Source of the DNA: Ignavibacteriales bacterium
Lineage (GTDB): Bacteria > Bacteroidota > Ignavibacteria > Ignavibacteriales > Melioribacteraceae
Direction of reading: 5' to 3'
Length of the DNA stretch: 64,000 nucleotides
Assembly (NCBI GenBank): GCA_021740915.1
Contig: JAIOYW010000010.1
Span: 62,001-126,000 of the forward strand
Made by a program: the position numbers and the translations under genes. The notes beneath the pieces were generated by a model that did no database searches, had not been told where the DNA came from, and saw nothing but the letters and a program-made list of their open reading frames with translations. Every line of letters starts with the position of its first letter. Position 1 is the stretch's first letter. Of this stretch, positions 16,105 to 36,536 are shown one piece after another.

Positions 16105-18354
16105 ATGGAAAAATCAAGATTTCCCAAATTCTATCAGCTTTCGGTAACACAGCGGCTCGAGATGCTCAGGGATAGAGGCGTTATCACTGCTGAGGATTTT
16201 CAGCTTCTGAAAGCTGGTAAAAAAGTATTAAAAGTTGATGAAGCCAATAAAATGATTGAAAACGTCATTGGAGTTTTTGGCTTGCCGTTAGGACTCGGTT
16301 TAAATTTCCTTGTTAACGGCAGATCGCATATCGTTCCGATGGTTGTTGAGGAACCATCTATTGTGGCAGCCGTAAGTTCAGCAGCCAAACTTATAAGGGA
16401 ATCAGGCGGTTTCACAAGCAGCTATTCCGAGCCTCTCCTGTTCGGGCAAATTCAGGTCGTTAATGTCGATCACTTTTCTAAAGCGAGGTCGGCTGTACTG
16501 CAGAATAAAGAGGAAATCCTTAATCTTGCAAACGGTCTGCACCCCAATATGGTCGCAAGAGGCGGAGGAGCAAAAGATATTGAAGTTGTCGTTCACACAG
16601 GCAATCCAGGAAGATCGGATATGATGATTGTAAACCTGCTTGTCGATACAAGAGACGCTATGGGGGCAAATCTTGTCAACAGTATGTGTGAAGGCGTAGC
16701 TCCGCTTATTGAAAAGATCACTAACGGCACGGTTTTCCTCAGAATTTTATCCAATCTTGCCGATAGAGCTCTTATCAAAACAAAAGCTGTGATCAATGTT
16801 ACTTCCCTCGGGATGAACGGCTACAAAGGAGAGCAGGTGCGCGATGGGATTATCCTCGCAAACGACTTCGCATGCATCGATCCATACAGGGCAACAACCC
16901 ACAATAAAGGCATAATGAACGGGATTGATGCAGTTGCCATTGCCACCGGTAACGATTTCCGGTCGATTGAAGCTGCCGCTCATGCTTATGCCTCAAGGGG
17001 AAACAAATATACTTCTCTTACTCAGTGGTCAAAAAATGAGGATGGCAATCTCGAGGGATATATTGAACTGCCAATGAAAATCGGCACTGTCGGAGGATCG
17101 CTCGAATCGAACCCTGCCATTAAAGTTGTTCATAAAATCCTCGGCATAAAAAACTCTGCTGAACTTGCAGAAATTATGGGCGCAGTCGGACTTGCACAGA
17201 ATTTTGCAGCCCTCAAGGCGCTTGCCACTGATGGGATTCAGCGTGGTCATATGAGTCTTCATGCGCGGAGTGTTGCGATGGCTGTAGGTACACCTGAGGA
17301 TATATTTGATGAAGTGGTGGAAAAACTTATTGAGAGCAGCGAAATAAAAAACTGGAAAGCTATGGAAATTACCCGGGAGCTCAGAGAAAGAAAAAGAATC
17401 AGAGAAAAACTTACACCGGATGAAAGTTTTCAGAATTATCTGCCTTCAGGATTCGGGAAAATAATTTTGCTGGGCGAACATGCTGTTGTGTATGGAAGCC
17501 ACGCAGTTGCTGCCCCGATACCATTGGCTATTGAGGCGAAAGTCGAAGATTTTCATAAGGGCATTCACCTTGTGATACCCCGATGGGGAGTTGAACAGAC
17601 ACTTCATAAAGGCATTGAGCATAAACATTCGGTATTTAAGTCGCTCGATCTGATTCTTGAAAGCCTGAATCTTACTGATAAAGACGTCCGCATCGAGGTC
17701 TTCCCGCATATACCGCGGGCGATGGGTCTCGGCGGCTCGGCGGCGCTTGCCGTCTCCATTATCAGAGCGCTCTCAGAGCATTTCAAACTGAACCTCTCCG
17801 ATGAGGATGTGAACAGAATTGCATATGCTTCCGAACAGGTCGTGCATGGAACCCCTTCAGGTATAGACAACACTATGGCAACCTACGGGAAATTTATTCT
17901 ATATAAGAAAGGTGATCCACCTTTGATTAAAAAACTGCACATCCGGGAACCAATTCCAATTGTTATTGGTCTTAGCGGTGTTGAAGGACTTACCGCAAAA
18001 ACTGTTGCTGATGTCAGGAAAGCCCACGAGGCGAATCATGACCTTTACGACAGGATATTTTCCGATATCGACAGCCTTGCTCTTGAGTCAGTAAAGGCGC
18101 TTGAAAAGTATGACCTTGCAAGACTCGGAGAGCTTATGAACATTAATCAGGGATTGCTTAACGCCATTAAAGTTTCCACGTGGGAACTCGAAGAGCTTGT
18201 TGAAATAGCAAGAAGAAATGGCGCTCTCGGCGCTAAACTTACCGGCGGCGGCGGCGGCGGTGCGATGATTGCACTCTGCCCCGATCACCCTGAAGAAGTT
18301 GCTTCAGCAATAAAAAATGCAGGCTATAAAGCCTTGATTGCTCAGATTGGTTAA
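16105..18354 (+). CDS. HMG-CoA reductase (class II) fused to mevalonate kinase
   Basis: A single 749-residue frame carries two consecutive pathway enzymes. Residues about 1-430 are HMG-CoA reductase: ENVIGVFGLPLGLGLNF and the catalytic glutamate in VEEPSIVAA (82-83), the lysine in LADRALIKTKAVI, the aspartate in AIATGNDFRSIEAAAHAYA and the C-terminal histidine in RGHMSLHARS. Residues about 445-749 are a GHMP mevalonate kinase: GFGKIILLGEHAVVYGSHAV, the ATP loop MGLGGSAALAVSIIRAL, HGTPSGIDNTMATYG and the C-terminal LTGGGGGGAMIAL. Between them lies a charged linker (RELRERKRIREKLTPDESF). The expected activity is reduction of HMG-CoA to mevalonate and its phosphorylation within one chain. No stop or start lies at the junction, so this is not two overlapping genes. 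Confidence 0.93.
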   Translation: MEKSRFPKFYQLSVTQRLEMLRDRGVITAEDFQLLKAGKKVLKVDEANKMIENVIGVFGLPLGLGLNFLVNGRSHIVPMVVEEPSIVAAVSSAAKLIRESGGFTSSYSEPLLFGQIQVVNVDHFSKARSAVLQNKEEILNLANGLHPNMVARGGGAKDIEVVVHTGNPGRSDMMIVNLLVDTRDAMGANLVNSMCEGVAPLIEKITNGTVFLRILSNLADRALIKTKAVINVTSLGMNGYKGEQVRDGIILANDFACIDPYRATTHNKGIMNGIDAVAIATGNDFRSIEAAAHAYASRGNKYTSLTQWSKNEDGNLEGYIELPMKIGTVGGSLESNPAIKVVHKILGIKNSAELAEIMGAVGLAQNFAALKALATDGIQRGHMSLHARSVAMAVGTPEDIFDEVVEKLIESSEIKNWKAMEITRELRERKRIREKLTPDESFQNYLPSGFGKIILLGEHAVVYGSHAVAAPIPLAIEAKVEDFHKGIHLVIPRWGVEQTLHKGIEHKHSVFKSLDLILESLNLTDKDVRIEVFPHIPRAMGLGGSAALAVSIIRALSEHFKLNLSDEDVNRIAYASEQVVHGTPSGIDNTMATYGKFILYKKGDPPLIKKLHIREPIPIVIGLSGVEGLTAKTVADVRKAHEANHDLYDRIFSDIDSLALESVKALEKYDLARLGELMNINQGLLNAIKVSTWELEELVEIARRNGALGAKLTGGGGGGAMIALCPDHPEEVASAIKNAGYKALIAQIG

Positions 18355-18369
18355 TTTGGAGACCCGATA

Positions 18370-18933
18370 ATGAACGATAACCTTGTTTCTTTCAGTAATG
18401 AACTCCTTATCCTCGTTGATGAGAACGACAGAGTTGTGGGATATAAGACCAAAAACGACTGCCACAATGGGGATGGAATTCTTCACAGGGCATTTTCGGT
18501 ATTCATATTTCGGAAAAACGGTAAATTGATACTTCAGCAGAGAAGCGCGGTTAAAAGGCTTTGGCCCGGATTCTGGTCGAATAGCTGCTGCAGCCATCCG
18601 CGCAAAGGCGAATCTTATGAGGTCTCCACTCAGAGGAGGATTCTCGAAGAACTCGGACTTAAAACTGAACTTAAATACCTTTATAATTTCGTTTATCAGG
18701 CAAAATTTGGCGACATAGGTTCCGAATACGAAAACTGTGCTGTATTTATCGGGTCATGTGATGATGATCTTCATATCAATCCAAATGAAATTTCTTCGGT
18801 TAAAGAAATATCCCCTGATGATATGGACCGCGAATTTGAGACGAATAGTGAACTTTATACCCCCTGGTTTAAGTTAGAATGGAAAGCCCTCAGGACTCAG
18901 CACTGGGCTGAAGTGGAAAAATTTTTCAAGTAA
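18370..18933 (+). CDS. idi: Isopentenyl-diphosphate delta-isomerase, type I (Nudix fold)
   Basis: Interconverts isopentenyl and dimethylallyl diphosphate. The 187-residue protein has the IDI type I signature: VDENDRVVGYKTKNDCH near the N-terminus, HRAFSVFIF, the catalytic cysteine in FWSNSCCSHPRKGE, and the Nudix-like RRILEELGL with its metal glutamates. It follows the fusion gene by 15 bases with GGAG at 18358-18361 upstream of the ATG. It completes the route from HMG-CoA to both C5 building blocks within one operon; acetyl-CoA acetyltransferase and HMG-CoA synthase must be encoded elsewhere. Confidence 0.95.
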   Translation: MNDNLVSFSNELLILVDENDRVVGYKTKNDCHNGDGILHRAFSVFIFRKNGKLILQQRSAVKRLWPGFWSNSCCSHPRKGESYEVSTQRRILEELGLKTELKYLYNFVYQAKFGDIGSEYENCAVFIGSCDDDLHINPNEISSVKEISPDDMDREFETNSELYTPWFKLEWKALRTQHWAEVEKFFK

Positions 18934-20689: not shown

Positions 20690-22306
20690 CTAAAGAGTAA
20701 AATACTGGTCCAGTAAAGTCACCAATGCATGGCTCATTATAGGCTTGGAAATATGATCATTGAAGCCGGCTTCAATAGCCTTCTTCCTGTCACCGCTAAG
20801 CCCATAGGCAGTCTGTGCAATTATTATCACATCCTTATTGAACTGCCGTATCTGATGCACTGCTTCATATCCATCCATTCCGGGCATTTTGATATCCATT
20901 AGAATTAAATCGATATCCGGATTATCCCGGCTGATCTCAACTGTTTTGGCTCCGGTTTCTGCCCTTCTCAGTTTATTAGTATATTTTTTAAGTATGGTTT
21001 CCAGATACAGATAATTCGGTTTGTCATCCTCGGCGATCAGTATTGATAATAATTTCTTTTTACGGAGAACCGCCGGATTACTTTTTATTTCCAGGATTTT
21101 TTCACCATTTCTGACAGGAATCGTAATAAAAACGGTAGTGCCCTTATTTCTTTCCGACTGAATCGATAGACTTCCTCCCAATAATTTTGCTATTCTGTCG
21201 GCTACACTCAAACCAAGTCCGCTGCCTTCATGCCCCCGCGTGTTTGCGTAGTTTTCCTGCATAAAAGCATCCAGAATACGTTTCTGAGCCTCAACTGAAA
21301 TTCCAATACCGGTATCTTTAACAAAAAACTGTATCTGGTCGTCTTTGGGTTCGCAGCCAATAGTAATACTGCCGCTTTTCGTAAACTTGAGTGAATTGTT
21401 TACTATATGCGAAAGTGCTTTGAGTAAAAGCTCTTCATCAGAAAAAAATGAAAAATATTTTGGGAAAGTTGAATCAGCAATTTTGAATTCAAGATTTTTC
21501 CTGGCGCTCTCTCCGCTGAATTTGTCAGATAATTGCAGCATTATTGCAAAAAGAGTTATGCGGTCGGTTTTAACGTTCATATTTCCGGATACAATAAGCG
21601 ACATATCCATAATATCAGTTACGGTATTAATAAGCCTTTCGCCGTTTTCATTTATAAGCGAGAGATATTCTTCCTTCTCTTTCTGTGAGATTCCCGGTTC
21701 TACTACAAAAGGTGAAAAACCAAGAATTACGTTGAGAGGAGTCCGGATTTCGTGGGAAATATTATTCAGAAAAGCAGTTTTTAGCCGGTTGCTTTCCTCA
21801 GCCTTATTTCTCGTAATTAATAATTCTTTGTTGGATAACTCCAATTCCTGTGTTCTTTCCTCAACTTTCTCTTCAAGAATCTGATTCTGATTTTCAAGCT
21901 GCTGATGGAGGTATTTAATCTCGAGAAGGTTTTTTATTCTTAATACAACTTCAATAAGGTCGAAAGGCTTGGTGAGAAAGTCTCTCGCACCGTTCGAAAG
22001 CGCCTTTTGTCTGGTCTCAGGTGAAATATCCGCCGTCAGCACAAGAATTGGAATAAATGTCTGCCCGGCAACCAAAGGCTTTATCTGATCCATAACTTCA
22101 AACCCGGATAAATGCGGCATCATCAGATCGAGGAGAATCAGATCAGGTTTGAATTCAGAAAGCAGACGATTCACATCACGCGGGTCGGTTGTTGATTTTA
22201 CATTAATATAGCCTTCAATATCGAGCAAACCTAAAAGAATATTAATATTAGCTTCCTGGTCATCGACGATCAGGATATTTGCGTTTTTCAAAGTCGAATC
22301 AATCAT
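20690..22306 (-). CDS. Hybrid histidine kinase: receiver - HisKA - HATPase - receiver
   Basis: The 538-residue cytoplasmic protein has four modules. An N-terminal receiver (residues about 9-125) has phospho-acceptor context LILLDLMMPHLSG. A coiled coil (about 130-180) leads to HisKA with the phospho-histidine in NNISHEIRTPLNVILG (about 190). The HATPase domain follows, with NNSLKFTKSG, DTGIGIS and GSGLGLSVADRIAKLLGG. The C-terminal receiver (about 415-535) has LILMDIKMPGMDGYE. There is no membrane segment. The N-terminal receiver implies that it takes a phosphate or signal from an upstream kinase, and the giant kinase gene lies 134 bases upstream on the same strand. No DNA-binding output domain is present, so a further partner is needed. 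Confidence 0.93.
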   Translation of the reverse strand: MIDSTLKNANILIVDDQEANINILLGLLDIEGYINVKSTTDPRDVNRLLSEFKPDLILLDLMMPHLSGFEVMDQIKPLVAGQTFIPILVLTADISPETRQKALSNGARDFLTKPFDLIEVVLRIKNLLEIKYLHQQLENQNQILEEKVEERTQELELSNKELLITRNKAEESNRLKTAFLNNISHEIRTPLNVILGFSPFVVEPGISQKEKEEYLSLINENGERLINTVTDIMDMSLIVSGNMNVKTDRITLFAIMLQLSDKFSGESARKNLEFKIADSTFPKYFSFFSDEELLLKALSHIVNNSLKFTKSGSITIGCEPKDDQIQFFVKDTGIGISVEAQKRILDAFMQENYANTRGHEGSGLGLSVADRIAKLLGGSLSIQSERNKGTTVFITIPVRNGEKILEIKSNPAVLRKKKLLSILIAEDDKPNYLYLETILKKYTNKLRRAETGAKTVEISRDNPDIDLILMDIKMPGMDGYEAVHQIRQFNKDVIIIAQTAYGLSGDRKKAIEAGFNDHISKPIMSHALVTLLDQYFTL

Positions 22307-22440: not shown

Positions 22441-25400
22441 TTAATCCTGCTTTTTGCCGATCCAAAAATCAAGCGTGTTAATAAAATTAACAACATCAAG
22501 CGGTTTGGTCAGGTAATCTTTAGCTCCTGATTTCATAAGCCTTTCCATCTGATGCGGCATGGCATCGGCGCTTAAAACAACCACCGGAATTGCCGCCGTT
22601 CTTGGATTTGCCTTAAGCATTTTCAGAACATCCTTTCCATAAATATCGGGCAGATTCAGATCGAGCAGAATCAAATCAGGATTATGTTCTTCGGCTAATT
22701 CCACGGTCTGTTTTCCGTGCATATTCGAGATCATCCTCACACCGGGACACTGATTTTTAAGAATTTGCTCAACAAGTTCAACATTCGAAAGGTTATCTTC
22801 GATATATAGGATCAGTCCTTGAATATTATTTAATACAGGTTCAGTATCTGCCTCTCCCAAAGATGATTTATAATTTTCAATCTGACTGTCTGTTAATGGG
22901 AATTCGATCCAGAAAGTGCTGCCTTCTCCGACAGTACTAATCAAACCAATATTCCCGCCCATAGCTTCCATAAGACGTTTCACTACTGCAAGTCCGAGAC
23001 CAGTGCCTTCAGTCTCTGTTTTCTCAGCTCCGATTCTTTCGAAAGGTGCAAAAATCTTGGAATGATTCTCTTTCGAAATACCGATTCCTGTATCTTTTAT
23101 AGATATTCTTGCAATGTGTTCCGAAGTTTCTGTTCTGATCTCTACCCTACCGCCGTCCTGATTATACTTTACTGCATTGTTTAATAGATTTAATAACACC
23201 TGTTTTAGTCTCTGCCTGTCTGCCTTGATAAAAATATCTTTATCCCTTCTGTTGAAAAATTCAATCGTGATTTTTCTCTTTTCGGCTAAAGGATTTACAA
23301 TATCTATCATTTCGCTGATGCTGTTATTCAGCAGAACGGGTTCAAGTGAAAGCGAAACCCGACCCGATTCAATCCGCGCGATATCGAGCACTTCATTTAT
23401 CAGACCAAGCAGATGCCGCCCGCTTTTCAGGATGTGTTTAACCCCTTTGCTCTGTGAGGCATTGAGCTCTCCCATCTCCAATAACTGAGCAAATCCCAGG
23501 ATCGAATTCATCGGAGTGCGAAGTTCATGACTCATTCGTGAAAGGAATTCGCTCTTGGCAAGGTTCGCCTCTTCAGCTTCTGCTTTTGCCTGAAGAAGTT
23601 CTGCCTCTGCCTGTTTGCGCTCGGTAATATCAACCATCATCGTCAGTAAACATTTTTCTTCGCCGATATAAATCAAATCGGCAGAAAAAAGTCCCGTGAT
23701 TATTTTTCCGGATTTTGTTTTAGCAGTAAGTTCAATATCCCTTACATCTATATCCTGCTTTAATTTTCCTATCAAAGCGTCTCTGATTTCGGGGCTGTCA
23801 AAAAGTCTGAGATCCCCTGATGTATGTCCGATTACCTCTTCACGTGAAAATTCCAGGGCGTTAATAAAAGCTTCATTGACATCGATGAAAGTTCCTTTTA
23901 AGTCTGAAATTGCCATCATGGCTGCGTTACTATGAAATGCTTTGGAAAACTTTTCTTCTGATAGCTTTATTTTTGAAATGTCCTTAGTAACCCCGAAAAT
24001 AACAGGATGCCCATCCCAAAAACCAGATTTAACTCTGGTCTCCACCGGAATATAATTACCCGATTTTGTAAGGAGCGGGACTGGGCAGAAATCAGCAGTC
24101 CCTTCGAGCATTTCCCCGACAATACGACCAGCCTCTTCACGATGTTCTTCCGGATGTACAATTAAAACAGATTCCCCCAGCAATTCTTCAGTACTATATC
24201 CGAGCCGGTTTTTCACTGTATTATTAATATGCAGCATATTTCCCTGTTCATCCAGAACGAACAGAAAATCGTCTATTGTATTAAAAAATGTTTCATAATT
24301 CTTCCGTGTCTGATCCAGCACCTGGTCAATTCTCTGTTTACTCAGAATTCCCGCCAGCATATTGCTCCAGACTTTCAGATTGTTCACTTCAAAATCATTG
24401 TAAATTTTCGGTTTTTTAACAGCATCGAGCCCGACAAAGCCAATAAGTTTATTTGAGTCCAAAATAGGTACGGCAATCAATGATTGAATACCCTGGGGTT
24501 CCAAAACTTCCCGCAATGCTTTCTGAGATTCCGGTAAATTTTTTACCGAAGGAATCAGCATATTTTCCTGGCGGCGTAACGTTTCCATCCATATTGGAAA
24601 AGCATCGAGCGGAACACGCTGCAGATTATCTATTTCAGACTGGATTCCGTCATTACACCATTCGTATGTGTTGCTCATACTGTTATCGGCTTCATCAATT
24701 TCGAATATATAAGCGCGGTCGGCTTTCAGCAGAAAACCAATTTTCCCTAATGCTTTATTGATTGCATCCAGTATTTCATTGCCGTGAACACTTGTCATCT
24801 GGACTGATAACCGGAGCAATTCCCTTTCAAATTCTGCAGCGCGTTTTTGTTCGGTCAGGTCCATATTTGTACCTGTCACCCTGAGAGCTTTTCCCGTTTC
24901 ATCCCGGGTGATAAATCCCCTCGAAAGGATCGGCACATAATGTCCCTTTTTATGCAGCATCCTGAATTCCGCCTCATAGCTTTCTTTCGTGCTCTCGAGG
25001 GCTTTCCGGAAAACTTCATTCACATGTTCAATGTCATCGGGGTGTGTCAGATTTTCCCAAAGCTGAGAAGTTGTACTAAGTTCTTCGGGCTCATAGCCAA
25101 GCTGCTCCCACCATCTGCTTGAATAAAAGATCTGATCGGTAACAAGATTCCAGTCCCAGGGTGCATCATTTGAACCTTTAATAACCAGGTCAAGCCGCTC
25201 ACGGCTTTCCAAAAGTGCAGCCTCAATATTTTTTCGTTCGGTGATCTCCTGATGTGTACCGGACATAAGTAATGGCTTACCTTCTGAATCCCATTCATGC
25301 ACTTTTCCCCGGTCCAGAACCCAAACCCATTCGCCATTCTTATGTTTCATCCTCGATTCGAATGTATAATAGTCGATCTCGCCTCTGAAGTGTTTTTCCA

Positions 25401-28400
25401 ATAATTCTCCTGAAACGATTAAATCCCCGGGGTGTGCATATTGCATCCATGTTTTAATGCTCACCGGTGATATTTCATCAAGTGTATAGCCGATAATATC
25501 AGCCCATCTTTCATTAAAAACAGTTTCTCCGGTCTGAATATTCCATTCCCATGTGCCGACATTGGTGCCTCTGAGAATTGATGAAAGCCTCTGTTTTTCC
25601 CGTTCAAGTTCTGCTTCGATCGACAAACGATTCCTGATCTCTATTTCCAGATTTTCATTTGTCCTCGTAATCTCTGATGTCCTCTCTTCTACTTTTTGCT
25701 CAAGATTTGTATTTAGTTCAAGGATTTCCATCTCAGTTTTTTTTCTGTCAGTAATATTTCTGACCAGGGTAAAAACTTTTTCCTTTCCAAACGGTGTAAG
25801 TCTTGCTTCATAATAACCGATCGAATCAGCAGAACCGAGTATATATTCGTACGTTAAATTCTCCTGCTCCTGAATACATCGTTTAATTTTTTCGAGATGA
25901 TATTGTGAGGTTTCTTCATCAAATACCTCGGAGATATTCATACCAATTATCTTATCCGGCGGTACTATAAGGGCTGCAGGATTGGAATGATAGAATTCAA
26001 TGTATGTTCCTTCCTTATCAATTACAAAAATCAAATCGGGGATTGTACTTATAATTGCATTCAGCCGCTCGTTTTGCTGCCTGATATTCTCTTCAGTAAT
26101 TTTCTTATCTGTTATATCTATATTTACCCCGCTGAGCGAGACAAGGGTTTCACCCTCAAAATGGGGGACAATATTGTTCTGCACCCAGATCACCTTATCA
26201 TCCGGAAGAATAAGGCGCAGATCAACGCTTGCCGGTTTCCGGTTTTTTAATATCTCAGTAAGTTTCTCATCGAGTAGGTACCTGTCATCTGGGTGTACCA
26301 TTTTGTCAAATGTGTCTGAAGCAACTTCTTTCCCATCAGGTTTACGACCGACGAGATTGTAGTAATTTGCCGACCAGCGGGTTCTGCCTGTAATAAGATT
26401 ATATTCCCAACTGCCCATTTTTGCAGTTTTCTGAGCATAATTTAATTCTTCTTCACTTTTCCGCAGTGAATTTTCGGCTTCTTTTATTTCTGAAATATCA
26501 ATAACTGAAGCTGACATATACTCAGGCTGATTTTTACTGTCGAAAATTGCCCTGCCGTTCATTAGTGTCGGAAATACAGAACCGTCTTTTCTCGTGTGCC
26601 AGATTTCCATGTTCGAAAACCCGCCATCTTTTTTCATAAGTTCCAGAGCTTCATGCACACTGATCAGTTGCTCTTCATCGTGTAGCATCGAGATATAATT
26701 CCCTATCAAATCCGATACTTTATGTTTATGCATCCGGGCAAAAGCATCGTTCGAATACGTAATAATGCCATCAGGATCAATAATTACGCTGCCGTAATTT
26801 GCCTGGTCAGAAATTGTCCGAAACTTGAGCAATTCTTCTTCCGCTGATTTTTTTTCTAAAATTTCCCAGGCAAGATCAGCCAGCGATATAACAATGGAAA
26901 TATCTTTTTCATTATAATCAGTCGGCTTATTGCCGATTCCAACAATAGCCACAATAAGCTCATTGCGGAAAATAGGAACAATAAGTTCACGGGTAACAGG
27001 GGCGTGTCCCTCCGGCATACCCTTACGATGATCAAGGTTCTGATAGTTGTTATGGATAACAGGTTTCCGCTGCCTTACACAATCAACCCAAACCCCTGCC
27101 ATATCAATACTATAATGCTCATTAGCGCCTTCGGCAGTACACATTGTCTCAAGGGTGTTTGTTGACCAGTTCTGGAGTGTAAGAGTTTTCTGATCTGCAT
27201 CTACCACATGAAAGAATCCGATGCTGCTTTCTGTTAATAATTCAAGTTCATCTAATAGATTTTGCTGTAGTTCGCTTCGGGAATGTTTCTGAGCGAATTC
27301 AGTAAGCCGGAGCCGTGCTTCAAGAATCTGTTTGGATTGTCTGCGTTCGGTAACGTCCCGGATAGTAACAAGGGTTCCGGCTGCATCACCGCCCCTGAAT
27401 TGGGAACCATTTATTTCACCAATAAATATAGACCCGTCCGATCGTTTCATGCGGTATTCATCAGATAGTAAAAATTTCTGACTTATCATATTTTCAAAAC
27501 AGCGGGCGGCTCTTTCTAATTCTTCTTCTGCAACAAAGTCAATAAAGTTTTTACCTAACATTTCACCGGGCAAAATCCCGAAGATCTCAAACGACGAGGG
27601 AGACGCATAATTAATAAATCCTTTTCCGTCTGTAATAGATATAAAATCGCTGGTTTGCTCGGTTATAGCGCGGAATTTTTCTTCGCTTTCCCTTAATTCT
27701 GTTACAGCCTTATTGCGCTCTGTAATATCCTGCATAATAATTATGAGATTAAGGTTCCCGCTCTGATCAGTATAATGAGACATATATTTTTCAAAAAGCC
27801 GCTTTTCACCATCAGCGCGTATCAGCCAAAATTCATAATGTTTTTCGTATGTCCCGCCTTTAACAAATTTCTGAAAATTTGAGACAACAAAATCAATTGA
27901 ATCCGGATGCAGGAAACCGATAAATGATTCAGCCGAATAAACCTGTTCCTCAGTATAACCTGATGATTGCAGCATAGCCTCATTCACCCAGATAACTTTG
28001 CCTGAAACATCAAGAATGCAGATAGAATTGGATGAATATTCCGATATAGCCCTGAATCGTTCTTCGTTTGCGCGTATAATTTCTTCTTTCTGCTTATACT
28101 CGGTAATATCCTGAAAAACCCCGAACATCTCCGAAGCATTCCCTTCTTCATCAAATTTGAGTTCCGCCTTTGAAGTAATTATCCTTGCAGGTGAACCATC
28201 CGCCGGCTGAATAAGATACTCAAGGTCATAAGGCACCCCATTATTCAACAATTCATATGATGCGTTCCGTACTTTTTCTTTTTCAGGAATACAGGATTCT
28301 ACTTTCTCTGACGTAAAATCATCAGGATTGCTGCCTAATCCAAACAGCCTTAAGGATTCCGATGATCCCTTCAATTCTCTCGTTTTCAGATTGTACGACC

Positions 28401-30630
28401 ATGAGCCGGTATGCCCTATCTCCTGAGCCATCGAAAGCTGATTATATGCTAACGCAAGTTCATTGCTGCTTTTTTTAAGTTTTTCTTCTGCCTGCTTCCT
28501 CTCAGTAATATCACGCACCACAAATACCATCGCTTTAGGGGTTCCATCCTCTTCCCTCATGATCTCCCCGTTCACCTCAATGCATATCAGAGTATTATCT
28601 GACCTTACACCTCTGTATTCACCAGTCCCGCTATAAATCCCCTGCTGCATTTTTATTATTTCAGTCTGTGCGCGTTCCCTGTCTTCAGGAACAATAAACT
28701 CACTTAAATTACGCCCGGTCAGTTCTCCGGCATTTCCATAACGAAACATTTCAAGCGCTTTGGGTGAGGAAAAAAGAATTGTTCCGGTTAAATCGGTAAT
28801 AGTAATATTATCGGGAGATGCGTTTATCACTGCTTTATAGAGCGCTTCACTCTTGGTACGGGCAAGTTCGGCATTTTTATAAGCTGAAATATCATTGATG
28901 CTTGAAAGTAAACAGAGTTCGTTCTCAAGAATTATCGTCTGTGCAGAAAGAATTCCGTGTAAAATGTCTCCGTTTTTATTTTTAAATTGGTATTCTGTGC
29001 CCGTAAATATTTTGCCCTCCAGGAGCAGGGAAACGACTTCATTGCGGTCTTCTGCATTTACCCAGAGGTCAAGACTCGTAAATGAACCCGAAAAAATTTC
29101 TTCCCTCGAATAACCGGTTGCAAAAACAAATGCATCATTTACATCAATAAATTTACCGTCAGTTAATCTTGTGATACTTATTGCATAAGGGGATGTCTGA
29201 AAAGCTTTTGAGAATTTTTCTTCGCTCTCGATCAGATTTTTGTCATAGCGTTTTTTTTCGATAAAATTACTGAGCCGCTCGGCGATAGAAAAAAGCAGAT
29301 CAACTTCTTCAGGTAAAAATAATTTTTCAGCAGCAGGCAATTTATCCTCGTCAAGAGATACTTCAATCATGCCGCTTATCTGGCGGTTAATTAGCAGATC
29401 CTGTTTCAGGTTAAACCGGCTTTCCACATAATTTTCTGTCTGACAAACCAAATCGTCAATTCTGATCCTGGCTCCGGTAATTTCCGGGAATTGCCAGCCG
29501 GAAGAGATAATGAGAACAACCTGTTTACATACTTCTTCAACGGATATATCCGGATCGCTCATAACCTCCGAAATCCGGTTATGGCAGTCCAGTTCTTTTA
29601 AACGCTCACGCAGCTCGTATTCGAACTTTTTCCGGCTGGTAATATCGTGTACGTGCGAAATTAATAGTGTATCCTTGCCAAACTGTATTGGTCCTGAATA
29701 AACTTCCACGTCCCGAACTCTTCCATCGGCAAGCTTGTGCTGGAAAATGAAATAATTGCGTTCTTCGGCTTTTGCTCTTAGCATCTCCGATTTAAGCTGA
29801 TCTTCCGGAAGCGGATTTATCTCTGTTATTTTCTTCCCGCATAATTCTTCATGGGACCAGCCGTAATAATTACAGGCAGCTTCATTAGCGTCCCTAATAT
29901 CCCCTGACACCGGGTCGATCAGCATCATCACCGAATGATTGTCATCAAATAATGATCTGTACTGATCTTCGCTCTGATGTATTTTTTTCTCTGCCTGAAC
30001 CAGTTCGGTAATATCGTTAACAGTCAATAAGCATAAACCCGGATTATTTACGATTCCGGAAAGAAAAACATCGGTTTCTCTGCCATCCTGAAGTGATAAA
30101 ACCAAATTGCAGTTTTCTTTCTTTTCATTCTTCAAAAGCCGGACGAAAAACTGATCAAAAACCGGAATCGTATCCGCACTGACAAAACTTCTGAAAGATT
30201 TTTTAATCAGTACAGATCGGTCAATCCCAATCATAGAGGCTCCCGAAAGGTTCACCTCATTAATTAAGCCCTTTTGATCGAGCAGAAAATAACCGGATGG
30301 CGCAAACTCGAACAATTCAAGGTACTTTTCTTCAGCAGATCTTCTGTTTTCGATTGCAAGCATTAATTCTTCATTCTGCAGTTCAAGTTCAATCTGATGG
30401 ACATCCAGTTCATGAATGAGTTTCTGAATATCGGCTTCGGAGCTTTTGGATACCGGGTCGGATAGTTTTTCATGTATCAGGCTTTCGGCTTTTTTCCGGA
30501 GTGATGTGCTAACAGATTTGTCCGATTTATTAACGGCAGATTCATAGAGTTTCTGCAGTGAATCGTATTTTGACTTCAATTCCTGCAGCTCAATTATAAG
30601 TTCGTCCCTGGTTCTGTTCTGATTACTCAT
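22441..30630 (-). CDS. Giant cytoplasmic hybrid sensor kinase with about 14 PAS and 3 GAF domains
   Basis: A continuous 2729-residue frame. By counting PAS starts (patterns like FRAISEYSSNSICILD) and the closing DITERK-type motif, I find this order: coiled N-terminus (1-102), PAS1 and PAS2 (103-340), a degenerate GAF-like region (345-465), PAS3-PAS7 (470-1095), GAF (1100-1250), PAS8-PAS10 (1255-1620), coiled coil (1620-1665), PAS11-PAS12 (1670-1920), GAF (1925-2085), PAS13-PAS14 (2090-2330). The output modules follow: HisKA with SRMSHELRTPMNSILGF (histidine about 2366), HATPase (NAVKYNQDGG, DTGIGIS, GTGLGLAVVKRLMEAMGG) and a receiver with LILLDLNLPDIYG (about 2657). There is no signal peptide or membrane helix, so it senses intracellular cues. 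Several PAS modules may be recent duplicates. It is probably co-transcribed with the hybrid kinase downstream. Confidence 0.93.
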   Translation of the reverse strand: MSNQNRTRDELIIELQELKSKYDSLQKLYESAVNKSDKSVSTSLRKKAESLIHEKLSDPVSKSSEADIQKLIHELDVHQIELELQNEELMLAIENRRSAEEKYLELFEFAPSGYFLLDQKGLINEVNLSGASMIGIDRSVLIKKSFRSFVSADTIPVFDQFFVRLLKNEKKENCNLVLSLQDGRETDVFLSGIVNNPGLCLLTVNDITELVQAEKKIHQSEDQYRSLFDDNHSVMMLIDPVSGDIRDANEAACNYYGWSHEELCGKKITEINPLPEDQLKSEMLRAKAEERNYFIFQHKLADGRVRDVEVYSGPIQFGKDTLLISHVHDITSRKKFEYELRERLKELDCHNRISEVMSDPDISVEEVCKQVVLIISSGWQFPEITGARIRIDDLVCQTENYVESRFNLKQDLLINRQISGMIEVSLDEDKLPAAEKLFLPEEVDLLFSIAERLSNFIEKKRYDKNLIESEEKFSKAFQTSPYAISITRLTDGKFIDVNDAFVFATGYSREEIFSGSFTSLDLWVNAEDRNEVVSLLLEGKIFTGTEYQFKNKNGDILHGILSAQTIILENELCLLSSINDISAYKNAELARTKSEALYKAVINASPDNITITDLTGTILFSSPKALEMFRYGNAGELTGRNLSEFIVPEDRERAQTEIIKMQQGIYSGTGEYRGVRSDNTLICIEVNGEIMREEDGTPKAMVFVVRDITERKQAEEKLKKSSNELALAYNQLSMAQEIGHTGSWSYNLKTRELKGSSESLRLFGLGSNPDDFTSEKVESCIPEKEKVRNASYELLNNGVPYDLEYLIQPADGSPARIITSKAELKFDEEGNASEMFGVFQDITEYKQKEEIIRANEERFRAISEYSSNSICILDVSGKVIWVNEAMLQSSGYTEEQVYSAESFIGFLHPDSIDFVVSNFQKFVKGGTYEKHYEFWLIRADGEKRLFEKYMSHYTDQSGNLNLIIIMQDITERNKAVTELRESEEKFRAITEQTSDFISITDGKGFINYASPSSFEIFGILPGEMLGKNFIDFVAEEELERAARCFENMISQKFLLSDEYRMKRSDGSIFIGEINGSQFRGGDAAGTLVTIRDVTERRQSKQILEARLRLTEFAQKHSRSELQQNLLDELELLTESSIGFFHVVDADQKTLTLQNWSTNTLETMCTAEGANEHYSIDMAGVWVDCVRQRKPVIHNNYQNLDHRKGMPEGHAPVTRELIVPIFRNELIVAIVGIGNKPTDYNEKDISIVISLADLAWEILEKKSAEEELLKFRTISDQANYGSVIIDPDGIITYSNDAFARMHKHKVSDLIGNYISMLHDEEQLISVHEALELMKKDGGFSNMEIWHTRKDGSVFPTLMNGRAIFDSKNQPEYMSASVIDISEIKEAENSLRKSEEELNYAQKTAKMGSWEYNLITGRTRWSANYYNLVGRKPDGKEVASDTFDKMVHPDDRYLLDEKLTEILKNRKPASVDLRLILPDDKVIWVQNNIVPHFEGETLVSLSGVNIDITDKKITEENIRQQNERLNAIISTIPDLIFVIDKEGTYIEFYHSNPAALIVPPDKIIGMNISEVFDEETSQYHLEKIKRCIQEQENLTYEYILGSADSIGYYEARLTPFGKEKVFTLVRNITDRKKTEMEILELNTNLEQKVEERTSEITRTNENLEIEIRNRLSIEAELEREKQRLSSILRGTNVGTWEWNIQTGETVFNERWADIIGYTLDEISPVSIKTWMQYAHPGDLIVSGELLEKHFRGEIDYYTFESRMKHKNGEWVWVLDRGKVHEWDSEGKPLLMSGTHQEITERKNIEAALLESRERLDLVIKGSNDAPWDWNLVTDQIFYSSRWWEQLGYEPEELSTTSQLWENLTHPDDIEHVNEVFRKALESTKESYEAEFRMLHKKGHYVPILSRGFITRDETGKALRVTGTNMDLTEQKRAAEFERELLRLSVQMTSVHGNEILDAINKALGKIGFLLKADRAYIFEIDEADNSMSNTYEWCNDGIQSEIDNLQRVPLDAFPIWMETLRRQENMLIPSVKNLPESQKALREVLEPQGIQSLIAVPILDSNKLIGFVGLDAVKKPKIYNDFEVNNLKVWSNMLAGILSKQRIDQVLDQTRKNYETFFNTIDDFLFVLDEQGNMLHINNTVKNRLGYSTEELLGESVLIVHPEEHREEAGRIVGEMLEGTADFCPVPLLTKSGNYIPVETRVKSGFWDGHPVIFGVTKDISKIKLSEEKFSKAFHSNAAMMAISDLKGTFIDVNEAFINALEFSREEVIGHTSGDLRLFDSPEIRDALIGKLKQDIDVRDIELTAKTKSGKIITGLFSADLIYIGEEKCLLTMMVDITERKQAEAELLQAKAEAEEANLAKSEFLSRMSHELRTPMNSILGFAQLLEMGELNASQSKGVKHILKSGRHLLGLINEVLDIARIESGRVSLSLEPVLLNNSISEMIDIVNPLAEKRKITIEFFNRRDKDIFIKADRQRLKQVLLNLLNNAVKYNQDGGRVEIRTETSEHIARISIKDTGIGISKENHSKIFAPFERIGAEKTETEGTGLGLAVVKRLMEAMGGNIGLISTVGEGSTFWIEFPLTDSQIENYKSSLGEADTEPVLNNIQGLILYIEDNLSNVELVEQILKNQCPGVRMISNMHGKQTVELAEEHNPDLILLDLNLPDIYGKDVLKMLKANPRTAAIPVVVLSADAMPHQMERLMKSGAKDYLTKPLDVVNFINTLDFWIGKKQD

Positions 30631-33768: not shown

Positions 33769-33901
33769 AATAACCTTATATTTATTGAAACGTTTTAGTG
33801 ATCTCACTTTATAAGCTGGAGATAAATAAATTGTATATCCGGAAATTTAATGATCTTCCGGTAATTTCTGTTTGGAAATAATTTTGGCGGAACAAAACTC
33901 T

Positions 33902-35434
33902 TTGAAAATTACAGCAGCTCTGATCCTGATAATTCTTGCTTCGATCTCAATACATGCGCAGGATTCCCTCCGCAGCCAGGCTTTTCGTGAACCTGAACGA
34001 TTTAACAGATCGCCTGTTACCAAACCTCAATATTCCAATTATCCGCTCATAGCCGGATATATTCTTCAGAAAGATGCGAATTCAGGCGACCCCTTTGCAA
34101 TGCACGAACTGGGCATCCGCTACCTTATCGGGGCAGGTTTCCCTTCTGATACCGCCAAAGCTTTTTACTGGATCTCACGCGCTGCCGAGCGGAATATTAC
34201 TTCAGCCATGTTCAATACCGGGATAATGTACAGTAACGGATACGGAACAGGCTGGAATCCCTTCACAGCTTTCGAATATTTCCTCGGAGCCGCTCAGGCC
34301 GGGATGCCCGAAGCCATGTTCGCGCTTGGAATTATGTATCTCGATAATCTGACTGTCAGCAGAAATTTACAGAAAGCTTATGATCTCATTTCGCAATCTG
34401 CTAAATCGGGATTTCTGCCAGCTTCGGAAACTCTGAAGGAATTAAAACAGCGGGGAATTCTTAATCTTGTTGATACAACATATACAGCGCAGAATTCCGC
34501 ATCAAATGCCGGCATCCTGAATACAGGTACTATGGTAATGAGCCCTCCGGTTGAGCTTGATTTCTTAGACCTCGATTCAGACGAGAAGGAAGAAAAATTT
34601 TCAGATTCATCGCTGGATTCTCTTTTTATTGATAAATTGAGGCTTATTGATGAACTTGGGATCTATGATTCGGCAATATCCGCTTCTTCCCCTGCGGAAA
34701 TAATCGCACTTGCCGAATCTAACGGTAGTCCGGAAGCGCTCCTGATTCAGGCACTTATATATCAATCCGGATACCAGAAACCAAAAGACAATATTAAGGC
34801 TGCATATTACTTTTTCCGGTCATACAGGGCCGGGAGCGGGAAAGCCCTAGCAGGATTGATGAAACTTCTGGCTTCAGAGGAATTCAGGAAAGAACTTATC
34901 AAACGATCAAAAACTAATGAACCGCTTCCGAAATTCCTGCTTGCATCGCTAACTGTCTATAATCTTTTTGTGGTTTCCGACAATGAAGCTTCTGTGAATG
35001 TCTTAGAAAACCTTTATGCTTCAGGCTATGAACCGGCAGGACTTGAACTGGCTTCTATATATTATGCCGGCGCTGCTGTAGAGAAAAATATTGATAAGGC
35101 TGTGGAATTGTGGCGCAGTCTCATGAATAAGGGCAATAAGGAAGCGCAGATTAATCTCTCTATTCATGCCGTTCGTTTTTCAATCAATTATCTTGTTATA
35201 AAGGAGGCTGTCACAGGACTTCTTGATGCTTCAATGCTTGGTTCAATATCTGCATTAACTGTCATCGGTTATTGTCATGAACAGGGCATTTACTTCGACA
35301 TAAACAAAGCAAAAGCGGAAAGATATTATAAAAAAGCCGCTGTCAGAGGTTATCTGCAGGCTTCGGACGCTCTTAAAAATCTTTACGACGATTTAAGACC
35401 ATCTGATCCCCGTTTCGAGATTTTCGATAATTAG
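33902..35434 (+). CDS. Exported Sel1-repeat protein
   Basis: From the TTG at 33902 the protein begins with a signal peptide (MKITAALILIILASISIHAQ). TTG codons at 33872 and 33884 are alternatives but put non-signal residues first. Residues about 70-190 contain clear Sel1/TPR-like repeats (GDPFAMHELGIRYLIGAGF, ITSAMFNTGIMYSNGYG, PEAMFALGIMYLDN). A second block lies in the C-terminal half (PAGLELASIYYAGAAVEKN and ITVIGYCHEQ-type repeats near the end). An acidic spacer with LDLDSDEKEEKF lies between them. The role is probably scaffolding in the periplasm. Its stop lies 1 base from the stop of the converging phosphatase gene. Confidence 0.8.
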   Translation: MKITAALILIILASISIHAQDSLRSQAFREPERFNRSPVTKPQYSNYPLIAGYILQKDANSGDPFAMHELGIRYLIGAGFPSDTAKAFYWISRAAERNITSAMFNTGIMYSNGYGTGWNPFTAFEYFLGAAQAGMPEAMFALGIMYLDNLTVSRNLQKAYDLISQSAKSGFLPASETLKELKQRGILNLVDTTYTAQNSASNAGILNTGTMVMSPPVELDFLDLDSDEKEEKFSDSSLDSLFIDKLRLIDELGIYDSAISASSPAEIIALAESNGSPEALLIQALIYQSGYQKPKDNIKAAYYFFRSYRAGSGKALAGLMKLLASEEFRKELIKRSKTNEPLPKFLLASLTVYNLFVVSDNEASVNVLENLYASGYEPAGLELASIYYAGAAVEKNIDKAVELWRSLMNKGNKEAQINLSIHAVRFSINYLVIKEAVTGLLDASMLGSISALTVIGYCHEQGIYFDINKAKAERYYKKAAVRGYLQASDALKNLYDDLRPSDPRFEIFDN

Positions 35435-35435
35435 A

Positions 35436-36536
35436 TTACTTTTTCTTTATGACAAGAAACGTGATATCATCGAAGATTCCGTCATCTTCCCTGAAATTCG
35501 AAAGGGCTTCAATTATCCGTTTCTTGATCTCATCAGCATCTTTATCCTTGGTACGAAGCAGAATATGCTTTACTCGGTCGATGCCAAATTCCCTTCTTAA
35601 AGGATTCATTGCCTCAACCAGACCGTCTGTGTAAAATAAAAGAATATCATCCGGATTAAGTTTTAATTCTGCTTCCTCAATAACCGATTCAAATAATCCT
35701 TTGTCATTCAGCCCGATAGCTATCCCTTTGGGGTTTATTTCCGTGAATTCATTCTCTTTGCTCTTATATAGCAGAATTGGATTGTGTCCGGCGTTTGAAA
35801 GTTTTATCGAGCCGTCCTGACTTAAATTCGCAGCAGTTATTGTCAGAAAGTAACCGGCATTCAGATTTTTAAGAAATATGTTTTTTAATCCAATCAGAAC
35901 TTCTTTTGGAGATTGCGATCTATCCAGTATTGCATGAATTATAGCCTGAACTCTAACCATATACAGAGCCGCCGCAAATCCTTTCCCTGAAATATCCCCG
36001 ATAACGATCATTGAGTTATTATCGGAAATTCGAATAAAATCGAGGTAATCACCCCCTACGTCCCTTGCTGATTCATAGTATTCGGCAATACTATAGCTGC
36101 CCTGTCCGTTCTGTATTTTAGGCAGAAGACTATTCTGGATTTTTTTTGCAATTTTGAGATCATCTTTGAGTGTAAGTTTATCTGCTAATTCAAAAACAAG
36201 AAGTAAATTCATGATCAAAAACGAGAGCAGATAATAGATCGGCAATGACTGAATAAAAGCCACAAAAAAGAATAAAACCGCAGAGAGATAGAAAATCCTT
36301 CTGGCAGGAGATATCCTTAGTATGAAGGCATTAAACAGATTGCGCACGAAGAACAATATTCTGGCTGGTTTATTGGCAGGATAATCCTCTTTTCTTATTC
36401 CGCCTGCAAAATATTCATACACATCCGATGCATCACGTTTAATTAATTTTTCAATTTCATTAAACGTCATGTCGCTGGTATATAATTCGAATATCCTAAC
36501 GAAAGGATTTACTTTCTTTTCCCTGTTGCTGTTCAT
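35436..36536 (-). CDS. Membrane-anchored PP2C/SpoIIE (RsbU-like) phosphatase
   Basis: The N-terminal 90 residues are soluble. Two membrane helices (IFYLSAVLFFFVAFIQSLP and YYLLSFLIMNLLLVFEL) follow, then a short linker helix (KIAKKIQNSLLPKIQNG) and a SpoIIE-type phosphatase domain (about residues 150-366). The metal aspartates are in ARDVGGDYLDF, VIGDISGKGFAAALYM, LLFYTDGLVEA and DDGIFDDITFLVI, so the enzyme should be active. The family dephosphorylates anti-sigma-factor antagonists in partner-switching pathways. No anti-sigma or STAS gene is adjacent, so the target is unknown. Confidence 0.9.
   Translation of the reverse strand: MNSNREKKVNPFVRIFELYTSDMTFNEIEKLIKRDASDVYEYFAGGIRKEDYPANKPARILFFVRNLFNAFILRISPARRIFYLSAVLFFFVAFIQSLPIYYLLSFLIMNLLLVFELADKLTLKDDLKIAKKIQNSLLPKIQNGQGSYSIAEYYESARDVGGDYLDFIRISDNNSMIVIGDISGKGFAAALYMVRVQAIIHAILDRSQSPKEVLIGLKNIFLKNLNAGYFLTITAANLSQDGSIKLSNAGHNPILLYKSKENEFTEINPKGIAIGLNDKGLFESVIEEAELKLNPDDILLFYTDGLVEAMNPLRREFGIDRVKHILLRTKDKDADEIKKRIIEALSNFREDDGIFDDITFLVIKKK

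Follow-up and report, generated by a model that had tools for sequence, protein, structure and literature searches.

A giant soluble hybrid histidine kinase with 14 PAS domains, and relatives with the same kinase end and different sensor arrays

The gene and its modules

The window analyzed in this report, a stretch of 64,000 nucleotides from an Ignavibacteriales bacterium (contig JAIOYW010000010.1, positions 62,001 to 126,000), carries on its minus strand a gene for a soluble hybrid histidine kinase of 2729 aa (22441..30630), which has an ATG start and no internal stops and consists largely of a PAS/GAF array. A second kinase gene on the same strand, 134 bp downstream (20690..22306, minus), encodes 538 aa with the order REC-HisKA-HATPase-REC; we refer to its product as the partner kinase. 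An initial annotation had described a single frame of about 8.2 kb encoding a 2729-residue soluble hybrid kinase; its coordinates were right, although the strand (minus) was missing, and the description is borne out by the frame, the domain scans and hydropathy.

The modules follow one another as an N-terminal region, PAS01-02, GAF1, PAS03-07, GAF2, PAS08-10, a 53-residue linker, PAS11-12, GAF3, PAS13-14, HisKA-HATPase and a receiver; all module coordinates below are on the minus strand, and relatives are designated by locus numbers. The N-terminal region (residues 1-102, 30325..30630) is 59% identical to L021, and its Pfam matches are all below cut-off. PAS01 (103-209, 30004..30324), PAS02 (224-332, 29635..29961), PAS03 (473-583, 28882..29214), PAS04 (598-710, 28501..28839) and PAS07 (986-1095, 27346..27675) were placed by the profile and Pfam scans, and GAF1 (333-472, 29215..29634), a short predicted GAF fold invisible to Pfam, lies between PAS02 and PAS03. 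PAS05 (732-844, 28099..28437) is 73% identical to a unit of L011, PAS06 (859-971, 27718..28056) 71% to one of L017, and GAF2 (1096-1269, 26824..27345), assigned by Pfam to the GAF_2 family, 73% to L021. Near relatives of PAS08 (1270-1381, 26488..26823) were found in L130, L131 and L133 only (41-47%). PAS09 (1396-1508, 26107..26445; Pfam and profile) is of the PAS_3 type and PAS10 (1523-1628, 25747..26064) of the PAS_4 type; the 53-residue linker behind them (1629-1681, 25588..25746) is probably helical, its start being helical in a model of PAS09-PAS10. PAS11 (1682-1798, 25237..25587), of a widespread PAS_3 type, is 81% identical to L014, and PAS12 (1813-1927, 24850..25194) occupies a place between PAS11 and GAF3 that is unique to the window among the mapped relatives' rows. 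The array ends with GAF3 (1928-2111, 24298..24849; Pfam), PAS13 (2112-2220, 23971..24297), which is 80% identical to L028, and PAS14 (2228-2337, 23620..23949; Pfam and profile).

Domain parsing agrees with the earlier count of about 14 PAS domains. An iterated PAS profile built in this analysis gave 14, at 26.6-108.9 bits; as it was seeded with the kinase's own 14 units, this count is not independent. Separate Pfam scans yielded a PAS-clan match for every one of the 14 units, 13 of them above a Pfam cut-off (PAS05, alone, is slightly under it, at 24.2 versus 25.6 bits), and the TIGR00229 profile delineated 13 PAS stretches. These 13 are part of 80 TIGR00229 matches in the whole genome, which also has 72 HATPase_c matches; among 20 stretches chosen from its PAS matches, the second-richest frame has 7 PAS.

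Three GAF domains had also been proposed. Two were detected by Pfam (residues 1096-1269 and 1928-2111), and the first is recognisable by its predicted fold only: residues 333-472 have no Pfam match at E 0.1, and their structure, predicted with a pLDDT of 84.8 from a 4-sequence alignment, matches GAF structures with moderate scores (6ob8, E 2e-4; 3ci6, E 2e-3; the NifA GAF 8jrc, E 3e-3; TMq 0.60-0.68 across the GAF structures matched). Judged by this model, the region folds as a GAF domain that escapes Pfam.

The full HisKA-HATPase-receiver output reported earlier is confirmed. HisKA, HATPase_c and Response_reg are all above their Pfam cut-offs, and the kinase His, N, G1 and G2 motifs and the receiver Asp and Lys are all found, a set that by its motifs marks the protein as a hybrid histidine kinase. 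The predicted phospho-accepting residues are His2368 in the HisKA-HATPase_c unit (2338-2590, 22861..23619) and Asp2657 in the C-terminal receiver (2600-2729, 22444..22833). No membrane segment was seen, in line with the initial annotation, the highest 19-residue Kyte-Doolittle window being 1.57, below 1.6; the repeated closing motifs that it had pointed out are present as DITERK-like tails at the ends of units. The giant sensor kinase is real and well formed, and its interest lies in the constant output and exchangeable array of its family.

Relatives of the modules in other kinases

Relatives were initially found with six peptide patterns from the kinase, the best 80 of 92 being retained; PAS11 and PAS12 are over-represented among them, since one search pattern came from each. 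For 13 of the 14 PAS units, the best counterpart in this set is 50-81% identical, and for PAS08 it is 29%, rising to 47% after more genomes were added. All 14 therefore have counterparts in other kinases at 47-81% identity, arranged in other orders. Matches in other frames of the same genome are lower, at most 55% (PAS11). Within the kinase itself, the closest pairs of units are PAS03/PAS14, PAS04/PAS07 and PAS11/PAS12, at 33-36% (36% for PAS03/PAS14, then 34% and 33%), and the median is 17%. The proposal that several units stem from recent duplication within the gene fails on these numbers, as the units are better matched outside the protein (47-81%) than inside it (at most 36%), and we rejected it.

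The counterparts are distributed among several groups of kinases. Among the best 80 of 92, a set made up of L011, L021, L019 and L023 is closest for the N-terminus, PAS01, PAS02, PAS05, GAF2 and the receiver, and a second set (L010, L013, L014, L015, L017, L028 and L030) is nearest or sole for GAF1, PAS04, 06, 07, 09, 10, 13, 14 and GAF3, when weaker matches in a third set (L130, L131, L133) are set aside. PAS08 belongs with this third set, and PAS03, PAS11, PAS12 and the HK have little power to tell the sets apart. The split into two sets, picked by eye from the module map, is descriptive. By sequence identity, module types found in two or more sets of other kinases are combined in the window kinase; part of this patchwork could reflect different losses from a larger ancestor.

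Positions vary along with content. The order PAS06-PAS05 is inverted in L010 and L017, which are sisters, so that perhaps one event is involved; PAS10 is either cleanly present between PAS09 and the 53-residue linker or missing, depending on the relative; PAS12 is placed elsewhere in L014; and two PAS11-type units are adjacent in L011.

Kinase ends, sensor arrays and partner genes

A whole-protein search of 29 genomes, including the window's own, returned the window copy only at E 1e-150, a cut-off that was too strict. With the kinase-receiver end as query (E 1e-85), at least 13 of 391 genomes of the class were positive, the window's own included, a lower bound because four candidates were scored per genome; 13 of the 18 matches were taken further, in 12 stretches. 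Other Bacteroidota and Ignavibacteriales genomes contain frames with this output, 2161-3398 residues long, the relatives being mostly metagenome-assembled genomes.

A tree was calculated from 37 different kinase-receiver ends with a match spanning at least 330 residues; L014:2484, L019:7398 and L029 are missing from it because of inserts between kinase and receiver. In this tree 34 ends, including the window's, form one clade (support 100/100), in which the same kinase end is carried with 1, 2, 3, 7, 11, 14, 16 or 20 PAS (lower bounds where frames are incomplete). The sister of the window kinase is L011 (support 100/97), from a metagenome bin recorded as Chitinophaga pinensis, Bacteroidota. 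NCBI taxonomy places Ignavibacteriales in Ignavibacteriota, neighbouring Bacteroidota; a sister in another phylum hints, by the tree, at possible transfer between lineages. L011 also has 14 PAS, but of the window kinase's types only PAS02, 05, 11 and 12 find a match in it at 60% or more, and 9 of its own 14 PAS have no window module above 40%. The comparison of L010 and L017 (sisters, 100/100) gives a closer view: eleven PAS pair one-to-one at 65-88%, L010 carries one extra whole module, 54% identical to an L017 unit at another position, and a three-module stretch in one occupies the place of five modules in the other, one pair there being 53% identical.

Five related frames with 14-17 PAS (L010, L011, L014, L015 and L017), all labelled Bacteroidota, share module types with the window kinase, but module order and content differ. 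Their kinase-receiver ends are 59-66% identical to the window's in L011, L010, L017 and L015; in L014 the HK is 65% and the REC 59% identical. The simplest reading of these differences is that whole modules were inserted, lost and reordered. Four loci (L012, L014, L015, L019) each have a same-strand run of two or three multi-PAS kinase genes of this type, separated by 17-176 bp; such tandem genes could act as templates for module exchange.

A partner-type gene, with the same first receiver and kinase, was sought up to 9 kb downstream of the kinase, directly or behind another family kinase. Of 37 rows inspected, six with less than 1.5 kb downstream were excluded (L016, L020, L022, L024, L025, L029; among these, L029 has a partner-like match and L020 a receiver). 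The gene is present in 18 of the 31 testable rows, the window included, and three of the loci concerned (L012, L015, L019) have two kinases sharing one partner. By this strict test it is absent from the other 13, among them the giants L010, L014, L017, L021 and L130; L138 was scored negative despite a receiver, and L139 despite a partner-like frame upstream. Local matches to the window's partner are 55-74% identical in the first receiver and 23-53% in the kinase. This better conservation suggests that the first receiver is a kept contact, perhaps a phosphate acceptor.

PAS numbers per protein can be set beside those of the survey by Xing, Gumerov and Zhulin (2023; PMC10468136), in which the average is two, a cyanobacterial kinase reaches 19 and Phytophthora exceeds 14, so that the window kinase is not exceptional by PAS number. 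The multi-PAS kinases of that survey are, like ours, histidine kinases with many PAS, but the combination of a constant kinase end, a varying array and a partner kinase is not described in the parts of it that were available. A genome of the same order as the window's contains a frame of 3398 aa (L130:1120-11313) with the same kinase-receiver end and 20 PAS by our profile or 19 by TIGR00229, which equals or exceeds the 19 of the survey. Among the matches listed from the open-licence PMC literature, no paper on the family was recognised by title or by the start of its abstract, which does not prove that none exists.

That some kinases have a dozen sensors or more is known but lacks an explanation. 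This family constitutes a natural series with the same kinase end, a varied number of PAS and module-by-module differences between close relatives; it permits asking whether the effects of serial sensors sum, which modules could be lost without consequence and whether swapping is made possible by a heptad-phase rule. A broader reading, to which we give slightly less than an even chance, is that a family in Bacteroidota and Ignavibacteriales couples a constant HK-REC output, often with a partner REC-HK, to interchangeable PAS/GAF cassettes, which number between one or two and about 20 per protein and are swapped whole and in phase between kinases. If true, it would be a natural plug-and-play sensor bus.

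Linkers, cofactors and a working model

Gaps are the stretches between the end of one PAS and the start of its successor. The nine adjacent-PAS gaps given by the profile are 14, 14, 21, 14, 14, 14, 14, 14 and 7 residues; the tenth, PAS10-PAS11, was omitted by the profile's end rule and measured separately at 53 (7n+4), so that nine of the ten gaps in this multi-PAS kinase are multiples of seven. A helix is predicted across one linker: in the PAS09-PAS10 model, a monomer with high local and modest overall confidence (pTM 0.49), a single helix runs through residues 1507-1527. The same phasing is found in the relatives' frames (374 gaps: 327 7n, 18 7n+3, 27 7n+4, 2 others), in other frames of the window genome (31 gaps: 26 7n, 5 7n+3) and in loci L130-L141 (61 gaps: 45 7n, 12 7n+3, 3 7n+4, 1 other), with L132 counted twice in these totals because its DNA is contained in L027. 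The rows are not independent and the length of 14 is partly inherited; leaving out 14 itself, there are 14 distinct lengths, and 11 of them are 7n, 7n+3 or 7n+4 (chance about 0.007).

Coiled-coil insertions of three residues are stammers and those of four are stutters (PMC6798134). In the same review, the engineered kinases YF1 and YHF have the build of the window kinase (PAS-coiled coil-HisKA, 7n linkers, stammers and stutters), and YHF, with two sensors in series, shows positive cooperativity in its response; they are designed proteins with one or two PAS, whereas the window kinase is natural and has 14 PAS and three GAF. The S-helix (PMC1592074) likewise joins sensor domains to kinases by parallel coiled-coil segments, but spans about 40 residues, versus mostly 14 in the linkers here. 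Heptad phasing being an established rule, the window kinase is a strong instance of it and not a discovery.

The initial annotation had further suggested that each unit could bind a different cofactor or ligand. The flavin-binding Cys motif of LOV domains, which is also seen in the LOV structure chain compared, was sought as N-C-R/K-F/Y-L/I/M and G-x-N/H-C, and both are absent from the whole kinase; PAS08 has an Ile where that chain has the Cys. The E. coli proteins DosP and Aer were the yardsticks for heme and FAD; the DosP ligand is His69 (His77 in an older numbering), and the FAD-column Trp of Aer is Trp70. None of the 14 units has a Trp at the Trp70 column, the helix-F alignment being uncertain by about one residue; a Trp in helix F marks FAD-binding PAS of the Aer/NifL type, according to the PAS survey (PMC10468136). 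LOV and FAD cofactors were rejected, with no signature in the kinase, as was heme at PAS08, where a helix-F His is one column off the DosP ligand. One unit of 14 has a His at the His69 column, PAS10 (His1578, 25897-25899), in a predicted helix; this residue is kept in 4 of 11 aligned relatives, the three closest included, and since it is missing in the other 7, heme at PAS10 is only a weak lead. For PAS03, PAS08 and PAS10, the closest solved structures were too remote to point to a ligand. By these LOV, FAD and heme residue tests, no PAS of the 14 has a secure cofactor signature. As the module types are conserved separately, a different cofactor in each unit is nonetheless possible, and the integration of several inputs is plausible.

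The reading that we find best, and hold with somewhat better than even confidence, is a coiled-coil signal-integrating rod that would feed one kinase. The protein would be a hybrid histidine kinase of the cytoplasm, probably a homodimer, in which 14 PAS and three GAF are stacked on short coiled-coil helices of heptad-phased length. Each sensor unit would bias one continuous two-helix rod, the biases summing at the single HisKA-HATPase switch, and His2368 would hand its phosphoryl group to the C-terminal receiver, to the N-terminal receiver of the downstream REC-HK-REC kinase, or to both. The parts kept in evolution would be the kinase-receiver end and the first receiver of the partner, with the array rebuilt by in-phase insertion, removal and reordering of whole modules.

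The most serious competitor, which we consider unlikely, holds that most PAS bind no ligand and act as spacers or as dimerisation units for protein docking, that only one or a few sense, and that the main role of the array is to fix the length of the rod or to form a scaffold. The lack of a secure cofactor residue in the 14 PAS by the three tests fits it, as do the kinases with just 1-7 PAS in the same output clade and the reported oligomerisation by PAS extensions in PpsR (PMC3949515); what speaks against it is that each module type is conserved in its own right (47-81%) across proteins and positions, with invariant residues, in alignments of few rows, that a mere spacer would not need. An array grown by tandem duplication in this gene, with later divergence of the units, appears far less probable still: every unit has the PAS fold, three internal pairs reach 33-36% and L011 has its side-by-side PAS11-type pair, but each of the 14 units is nearer to a unit of another protein than to any of its own. 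That the frame is an assembly error or a fusion of neighbouring genes, a caveat raised at the outset for a repeated-domain gene and pertinent to an assembly of 35 contigs, is hardly credible, given one open frame with a single output end, heptad-phased junctions and frames of similar size and build, with the same output, in other genomes.

Two other places in the window deserve mention. On the plus strand, a 749-aa frame (16105-18354) with an HMG-CoA reductase domain followed by a GHMP (mevalonate-type) kinase domain looks, by its domains, like two enzymes of the mevalonate pathway fused into one; no such fusion was found by title among the literature matches listed, and a NUDIX gene (18370-18933) lies close by. 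At 33872-36536, the gene for a Sel1-repeat protein has as its neighbour, on the other strand, one for a SpoIIE-type phosphatase.
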